Shown here: one piece after another, positions 51,770-52,876 of the stretch
Layout of the letters: each line of letters opens with the position of its first letter
Numbering within the stretch: the stretch's first letter is position 1
Source of the DNA: Halorubrum saccharovorum DSM 1137
GTDB lineage: Archaea > Halobacteriota > Halobacteria > Halobacteriales > Haloferacaceae
DNA length: 64,000 bases
Reading direction: 5' to 3'
Assembly (NCBI RefSeq): GCF_000337915.1
Contig: NZ_AOJE01000021.1
Span: 4,980 to 68,979, forward strand
Notes under the pieces: model-generated
What the model was told of the DNA's origin: nothing
Database searches by the model: none
Seen by the model: the letters and a program-made list of their open reading frames with translations, nothing else
Translations under genes and position numbers: made by a program

Positions 51770-52204
51770 ATGAACTGGTCCCCGATCCCTCCCGCGGTCG
51801 CGGCCGCCGTCGCGGTCGCGGTCAGCGTCACGCGTCGCGTCCCGGCGGTCGTCATGGAGTCGCCAATCGGTATCCCCGAACCGCGCGCGCTCACTCTGTA
51901 CATCCTCGGCGGACGCTTCGCGACGTTCGCCCTCGTGTACGGGCTGCTCCTCGGCGCCGCGTATTGGGTCGGTCGCGGCGGCGGCGACGCCCTCGACCTC
52001 GGCGCGACGACGCTGGCCGCCGGCGCCGTCGGCGGACTCGCGTACCTCGTCGGGTCCGGTGCCGTGCTGCTGTGGACCGGTCCCGATCAGGTCGTTATCG
52101 TCGCCCTCGGCACGGTCGGCTCTGCGGTCGCCGTCGGCGTCGAACTGGCGGTCGTCGCGTTCGCCGGCCTCGCGCTCGGGCGATCGCGGATAAGCGGTTA
52201 CTGA
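51770..52204 (+). CDS. four-helix membrane protein of unknown function
   Basis: This is a 144-aa protein with four hydrophobic segments, at about residues 5-20, 42-68, 76-98 and 104-132, and few charged residues. No family motif is recognised. The upstream region has no strong TATA box. It lies divergent from pyrG. Confidence 0.65.
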   Translation: MNWSPIPPAVAAAVAVAVSVTRRVPAVVMESPIGIPEPRALTLYILGGRFATFALVYGLLLGAAYWVGRGGGDALDLGATTLAAGAVGGLAYLVGSGAVLLWTGPDQVVIVALGTVGSAVAVGVELAVVAFAGLALGRSRISGY

Positions 52205-52256
52205 TGGAGGAGTGAAAAACGGCTTCAGTAGCCTCGTTAGTCGTTTATAAGTAGTT

Positions 52257-52600
52257 ATCCGTGATCGGTGGTGAACACCTCCAAAGCCCCAGCCGCTCGG
52301 CTATACGTGGTTGATCCCGGATCGTCGGTGAACACTCACAAAGCCCCAGCCGTGAGGACGACGCACGCTCGCTGTGCTCCTCGTCACTCGCTTCGCTCGT
52401 TCCTGTGGTGCTTGCGTCGCCTGCGTCGTCCTCACGGCTGCCCCTTTGAATCCTACCCCGCACAGCACCGCAACCGCACCTCACGCCTCCCCAACCTCGT
52501 CGGTCGCCCTCGCTTCGCTCCGGGCGACCGACTCCCTCGCGCGGCGCTCCTTCGCGGCCGCCGGTGGCGGCCGCTCGGAGGCGCGCGCCACCGCGATCCG
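52257..52600. repeat. structured non-coding element with three perfect hairpins
   Basis: Two related direct repeats, sharing GGTGAACAC and AAAGCCCCAGCCG, lie at about 52263-52298 and 52319-52353. A 19-bp perfect stem then pairs 52347-52365 with 52422-52440, around a 56-nt loop. An 11-bp stem follows (52499-52509 with 52522-52532), then a 9-bp stem with a GGT loop (52554-52562 with 52566-52574). Frames through it have no family likeness. It fits a dispersed, non-autonomous haloarchaeal repeat or a structured RNA; it has no transposase. Confidence 0.6.
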
Positions 52601-52602
52601 GG

Positions 52603-52611
52603 TTATAAATA
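52603..52611 (+). promoter_or_regulatory. strong TATA box without a downstream gene
   Basis: TTATAAATA is an excellent archaeal TATA element and would start RNA near 52635 on the plus strand. No protein gene follows. The next sequence holds a GGAAGA...TCTTCC hairpin and the tRNA-tail-like inverted repeat. It could drive a small RNA, or it could be part of the repeat element. Confidence 0.4.
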
Positions 52612-52697
52612 GCCGACGCTCGCCGAGTTTGAGTGAAGTTTTGCGAGGGAAGAGCGCTCCGAGAGCGTCTTCCGCATCACGGGGGTGGACCCCGGCG

Positions 52698-52770
52698 ATG
52701 CGAGGGGAGAGATTTGAACCACGGTCGCGCCAGAGGCGCTCCCTGATTCAAATCCTCCCCCCTGATGCAT
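52698..52770. repeat. tRNA-3'-end-like inverted repeat
   Basis: 52698-52724 nearly duplicates the 3' end of the tRNA-Leu gene (52792-52819), with one substitution and one missing base. A third, inverted relative (ATTCAAATCCTCCCCCCTGA, 52746-52765, then TGCAT) lets 52698-52770 fold into a long stem. Similar copies downstream of a tRNA gene are often attachment-site remnants, though no integrase is seen. Confidence 0.65.
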
Positions 52771-52792
52771 TCGCGCGTTGTGGACGCGCTCA

Positions 52793-52876
52793 TGCGAGGG
52801 GAGGGATTTGAACCCACGGACCTCTACAGGAGCGGAGCTTGAATCCGCCGCCGTTTCCGGGCTTGGCTACCCTCGC
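52793..52876 (-). tRNA. tRNA-Leu (anticodon CAA)
   Basis: This is an 84-nt class II tRNA. The acceptor stem GCGAGGG/CCCUCGC is perfect and the discriminator is A. The anticodon stem GCGGA/UCCGC frames the loop UUCAAGC, giving CAA (complement at 52839-52841), which reads UUG. A long variable arm, UCCUGUAGAGGUC, is typical of Leu. The T stem has one U-U mismatch (GUGGG/CCCUC). CCA is not encoded and no intron is seen. Confidence 0.88.

Follow-up and report, generated by a model that had tools for sequence, protein, structure and literature searches.

A block in which no gene was called (52257-52600) follows a small plus-strand gene that ends at 52204; the next feature beyond it is a minus-strand tRNA (52793-52876). 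The block belongs to the 64,000-nt stretch of the Halorubrum saccharovorum genome that was analysed as a whole, here termed the window. An initial annotation had described the block as gene-free, filled by two direct repeats and three perfect hairpins, and regular far beyond chance, and each of these statements was confirmed. The direct repeats occupy 52257-52295 and 52314-52352 (39 nt, 82% identity, 57 nt from start to start), and the hairpins of 19, 11 and 9 bp were re-found at the positions claimed. When 271 nt of the block were folded against dinucleotide shuffles, the plus strand gave z = -5.9 as RNA and the minus strand z = -5.5 as RNA and -4.9 as DNA, and in no case did any of the 200 shuffles fold as well.

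The block and its surroundings read as an ordered series of parts on the plus strand. A TTATAA motif (52245-52250, no strand assigned) stands upstream of the first direct-repeat unit; the units are tandem with a period of 57 nt, their number differs among copies, and the end of the second, CAAAGCCCCAGCCG, doubles as the 5' arm of stem 1. The family profile matches the whole core from 52339 to 52593 (score 220.9), and the core's roughly 255 bp comprise module A, made of the long stem 1 and an inner hairpin, and module B, made of stems 2 and 3. Module A with stem 1 spans 52339-52448 and is closed by a 30-nt arm pair (52339-52368/52419-52448). Its foot pairs CAAAG (52339-52343) with CTTTG (52444-52448) next to a conserved, unpaired, C-rich internal loop, and the 19-bp perfect stem CAGCCGTGAGGACGACGCA (52347-52365 with 52422-52440) is hypervariable yet complementary among copies. 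The imperfect inner hairpin (52366-52421) has covarying pairs round a conserved TC/TC mismatch, which reads GA/GA on the minus strand, and carries the motif CTCGCTTCGCTCG. The family signature GCCCCTTTGAATCCTACCC (52440-52458) fits the 19-mer GCCCCTTTSARTCCYRCCC and is followed by a conserved unpaired linker block, CCTCCCCAACC (52486-52496; consensus CCTCCCCAGCC). Stem 2 (52499-52532, arms 52499-52509/52522-52532, GTCGGTCGCCC/GGGCGACCGAC) is the perfect 11-bp hairpin and covaries. The conserved block TCCCTCGCGCG (52533-52543) leads into stem 3, approximately 52538-52591, whose GC-rich foot and perfect 9-bp inner stem (52554-52562/52566-52574) also covary, and a second TTATAA (52603-52608, no strand assigned) lies just past the core. 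C-tracts at 52282-52295, 52339-52352, 52440-52458 and 52486-52496, which are G-tracts on the minus strand, are conserved despite the variation of the stems; from their letters, the minus-strand tracts could form a candidate G-quadruplex.

Abundance and organization of the repeat family

The proposal that the block is a multi-copy haloarchaeal element was borne out by searches of Halorubrum and other genomes, which returned many copies and not a single one. Searching the own genome returned 63 matches; these fall at about 40 places, a lower bound, so that at least 40 places are occupied, and the genomes G100 and G013 hold at least 40 copies each. All 12 Halorubrum genomes were matched in the first family-level search, and with weaker core matches included, the family's 28 genera yielded 21 with a match. 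The 19-mer was found in 181 of 292 haloarchaeal genomes and in 51 of 77 genera, with zero matches in every genome for the reversed-pattern control, and its copies per genome ranged from 1 to about 148 across Halorubrum species. A profile was run over contiguous samples, comprising 178 kb from the own contig and 40-180 kb from each of five relatives. It located 34 elements, remnants included, at a density of about one every 15-35 kb, with 5 in the own contig and 3-8 in the sample of each relative. Copy-number figures derive from these searches and the 178-kb contiguous sample and correspond to roughly a hundred scattered copies per genome. The repeat takes up a noticeable share of the intergenic DNA in a whole genus and extends over most haloarchaeal genera sampled.

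Few copies were found on plasmids, with no annotated feature beneath the matches, and the phage records searched gave no match. A viral origin was rejected on these phage records and on three 19-mer matches in viral contigs that look like chance, having no stems by eye and no match to the covariance model. One Bacteroidales match to the 19-mer also looks like chance; stems were absent by eye.

The order of parts in the family was read from an alignment of 25 copies and from extended copies. A variable number of 57-nt units, each with TTATAA and the end CCAAAGCCCCAGCCG, precedes module A, the signature GCCCCTTTGAGTCCCRCCC, the linker with its conserved block, stem 2, TCCCTCGCGCG and stem 3, after which TTATAA returns. 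Among 130 full copies, many have a TTATAA starting 37 nt before the core, with another 94 nt before it if a second unit is present, and many have one starting about 9 nt after the core end; to the right of the core the motif is hardly found beyond 75 nt. No TTATAA was noticed by eye in copies from outside Halorubrum. The 130 copies carry no coding signal: core length modulo 3 is evenly spread and no frame is preferred, which leaves a 114-codon ORF listed at 52268 unsupported and led us to reject protein coding.

Outside Halorubrum, module A frequently comes as two inverted copies set back to back, and at L038, L040, L096, L129 and L152 these surround a spacer of about 40 nt. At some sites (G100, G115, G013, G000:C67) the 57-nt unit is repeated twice to several times in the manner of a minisatellite. 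Small extra double hairpins (e.g. ATCAGAACGCGAAGCGTTCTGAT...CACGAGAGCTTCGCTCTCGTG) are nested in loops at L009, L016, L017, L019 and L020 and at site C of G121, as if smaller palindromic repeats preferred the palindromes of the element.

Compensatory change and the nature of the fold

Preserved pairing had been expected of a new element or RNA family, and compensatory changes do occur in the stems, both within Halorubrum and across other genera. Double changes were seen in 32 of the 62 predicted pairs in Halorubrum and in 48 in other genera, with far lower values in controls. In the Halorubrum alignment 95.6% of cells are paired. Double changes occupy 154 cells, compared with 42.6 after shuffling and 3-16 with the partner slid. 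As the structure was derived from these same Halorubrum sequences, the test in other genera weighs more. A covariance model built from Halorubrum copies alone gave 76 matches in non-Halorubrum loci at E < 1e-6, and in the other-genus alignment, which is fitted to this model and so leans towards its structure, 93.2% of cells were paired and 556 held double changes (155.6 shuffled, 48-76 slid). These counts show that base pairing is maintained by compensatory change across genera. A match to a known element, named beforehand as an outcome that would refute the proposal, was found neither in Rfam nor in the phage records; Rfam 15 returned no family above its gathering threshold, whether in the window, at a permissive E-value or in six loci of other genera.

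An RNA transcribed from one strand is expected to show an excess of wobble pairs on that strand. Over the 37 robust pairs of the full copies (4582 cells), 4262 cells were Watson-Crick and 200 of other kinds, and the frequent wobble favouring the transcribed strand that is typical of structured RNAs was not found, with 52 G-T against 68 A-C. In other genera, with two conserved wobble pairs excluded, the counts were 2394 Watson-Crick, 29 G-T and 63 A-C. Wobble in the element is thus rare and near strand-symmetric, tilting slightly to the minus strand; the two conserved wobbles (G-T/T-G, in the inner hairpin) tilt to the plus strand. For tRNAs in the same loci G-T was found in 50 of 661 pairs (7.6%), a comparison limited in that the program brackets allowed pairs alone. 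Because wobble is rare and nearly strand-symmetric, the data favour a DNA hairpin rather than a transcribed RNA.

The initial annotation had considered the block possibly transcribed, and each copy might still encode a structured non-coding RNA or act at the RNA level as part of a 3' UTR, driven by TTATAA at one or both ends and with the fold under selection. We consider this unlikely, even with several features in its favour. Every stem covaries, gene ends are preferred, and the inner hairpin has its two conserved G-T/T-G pairs on the plus strand; TTATAA stands at fixed spacing on both sides of the core and is kept in 23 of the 27 convergent cases, in which the adjacent gene has its 3' end facing the element. 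A transcript starting some 25 nt downstream of TTATAA would meet the foot of the structure. Against it stand not only the rare and nearly symmetric wobble, unlike the 7.6% G-T of tRNAs from the same loci, but also the TTATAA unseen by eye in non-Halorubrum copies, a copy number that varies from 1 to about 148 among congeners, and the absence of a match in Rfam.

The block is probably an old member of a family of mobile haloarchaeal DNA repeats, non-coding and non-autonomous, and the earlier guess of a non-autonomous element is supported by the many copies, the preserved pairing and, in one subfamily, the sharply defined ends. A trans-acting enzyme would recognise the hairpins, probably on single-stranded DNA at replication or in a cruciform, and would copy the element into other intergenic spots, where copies may then decay by deletion and by gain or loss of 57-nt tandem units. 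The strong compensatory change in all stems counts against such a mobile element, being more typical of RNAs than of MITEs. One tentative explanation, which we hold to be rather unlikely, is a haloarchaea-wide class of hairpin-borne mobile DNA with a single-stranded folded intermediate and a new enzyme, in which stems drift rapidly yet stay complementary through arm-from-arm repair during hairpin formation. If such repair takes place, the covariation seen here would be a signature of DNA hairpins and not of RNA. The element is a test case for the question whether an intergenic element with strong covariation must be an RNA.

Ends of the element and related systems

The defined ends foreseen for such an element were found to be sharp in one subfamily, that of the Halorubrum genome G148; the window copy showed no terminal inverted repeats (TIRs). 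Where present, the TIRs CGGGAGTRGGTATWGCA...TGCAATACYCACTCCCG are 17 bp long, and the distance between them is mostly 430-550 bp. G148, G129, G139, G132 and G140 have them in abundance, other genomes lack them or nearly so, and they occurred in 10 of 130 full copies examined; as a general feature they were rejected, since a flank-versus-flank test over the 130 copies gave a tail of real cases only. The window copy, with a complete core and no recognisable terminal repeats, is for the latter reason probably old and immobile.

In TIR-bearing copies the unit measures 435-480 bp, and most copy pairs are 75-90% identical. Three copy pairs of G148 (units of 440-480 bp) are 99.3-99.6% identical, their identity stops exactly at the TIRs (CGGGAG/CTCCCG), and their flanks differ and hold no target-site duplication. 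Gene conversion between existing copies could account for part of this near-identity. G148 holds recent-looking copies to work with. The G148 flanks often read GATCGATAG and CTATCGATC, resembling a palindrome and continuing into further repeat, and the uninterrupted palindromic target joining GATCGATAG to CTATCGATC was not found. Outside TIR-bearing copies lies a further repeat, about 70 nt long (..GTCCGAAACGGCCGGTCGCTGAAGNNTGCTTCTTGATCGATAG), which may point either way (L351-L372); all its listed occurrences adjoin the element. An autonomous transposon with the same TIRs was sought in G148 and not found, the TIR pairs there enclosing only about 400-550 bp. Neither coding capacity in the element nor a longer relative with a transposase came to light, and the candidates examined (TIR pairs in G148 and Y1 transposases) yielded no mobilising enzyme.

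Among the papers searched, none describing the element was found, and its signature strings gave just one unrelated match in paper texts. The closest known systems are the small mobile repeats (SMRs) of Haloquadratum and the bacterial REP/BIME sequences. SMR-A and SMR-B are transposase-free, present in many copies and bounded by TIRs, make no target duplication, and are mobilised in a way that was called enigmatic (Dyall-Smith et al. 2011, PMC3119063). They are 80-110 bp long and near-identical to each other, and SMR-A inserts in palindromes of PATE/IS605 elements, the PATEs being heterogeneous and rich in palindromes (PMC3119063). The present element is likewise transposase-free, haloarchaeal and present in many copies, and its G148 subfamily has inverted repeats and no visible target duplication next to near-identical copies. 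It differs in its size (core about 255 bp, unit 435-480 bp, about 255-480 bp in all), in an identity mostly of 75-90%, in its three covarying stems and in a haloarchaea-wide range; SMRs and PATEs were set apart from it by their published descriptions. TIRs bound its copies sharply in G148 and G129.

MITEs (reviewed in PMC10969869) are also short, non-coding and present in many copies, and inverted terminal repeats are shared by the G148/G129 subfamily. The element differs from them in that neither a target duplication nor a parent transposon was found, no TIR pair in G148 being of transposase size, in that TIRs were not found in most copies, and in an internal covariation that MITEs do not need. 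Some bona fide MITEs also lack a target-site duplication. The class I intergenic repeats of halovirus HF2 are 58 bp long with AT-rich promoter motifs (PMC8707807), which recalls the 57-nt tandem unit with its TTATAA box; phage records held no match to the element, and the HF2 repeats were compared through that search alone.

The likeness to REP/BIME (REPIN) sequences and their RAYT transposases (PMC3733652, PMC2817692) includes high-copy intergenic palindromes whose foot is constant and whose stem varies, a preference for gene 3' ends at convergent or codirectional junctions, and inverted back-to-back pairs, seen here in other genera and resembling those of PMC3733652. A REP/BIME-like repeat spread by a REP-associated tyrosine transposase, that is, an IS200/IS605-type TnpA acting on single-stranded hairpins, is nevertheless very improbable. 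The Y1 transposases of the own genome adjoin TnpB genes and not the element, and they are absent from G013 and G057, yet G013 has at least 40 copies; as Y1 transposases do not track the element, mobilisation by RAYT/TnpA is unsupported in the present genomes. The element is archaeal, far longer and multi-stem, with units of 110-255 bp and not 20-40 bp, it has no associated RAYT-like gene, and its conserved foot is GCCCCTTTSARTCCYRCCC where a REP would have a palindrome with a GTAG or CGTC tag. The text of a survey from 2025 covering bacterial and archaeal REPs (PMC12306157) does not mention those haloarchaeal genera that were looked for in it. The element is outside every family whose defining features were tested, and it offers a case for how transposase-free small mobile repeats of haloarchaea move.

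Genomic placement and turnover of sites

All 34 elements of the contiguous samples are intergenic and none is centred in a predicted gene, the genes having been called by a simple codon-usage caller. Their junctions were 23 convergent, 11 codirectional and 0 divergent, against a background of 134 convergent among 657 (Fisher p = 1e-8, an optimistic value since some sites shared between species entered the count more than once); locus-level counts gave a weaker convergent preference and some divergent cases. A host chromosomal signal, such as a site of chromosome organisation or, where genes converge, a terminator or insulator, would suit this enrichment and the broad conservation, but is hardly credible given that sites are not kept between species, copy number swings widely among congeners and many copies have decayed to remnants.

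Only two of the 20 own copies sit where one of the G100 copies examined also lies; nearer relatives share more sites. Presence and absence were seen at sites A-D and at the L349 site, with no clean empty site accompanied by a duplication; filled and empty sites differ beyond the element because intergenic DNA diverges fast. Among Halorubrum species whose two flanks could be joined at the L349 site, most have only some 25-112 nt there, and G148, G105 and G140 are filled, which looks like a gain since the empty state is the commoner. The site of the window copy is full in G121, G139 and G148, partially deleted in G132, G119, G129 and G105, reduced to a remnant in G134 and G130, and without the element in G140. 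Three strings resembling tRNA 3' ends (TGCGAGGGGAGGGATTTGAACC and shorter ones) precede the minus-strand tRNA in the window (strings at 52642-52805) and recur at the same place in relatives; they look like duplicated tRNA ends or remnants of an old integration site.
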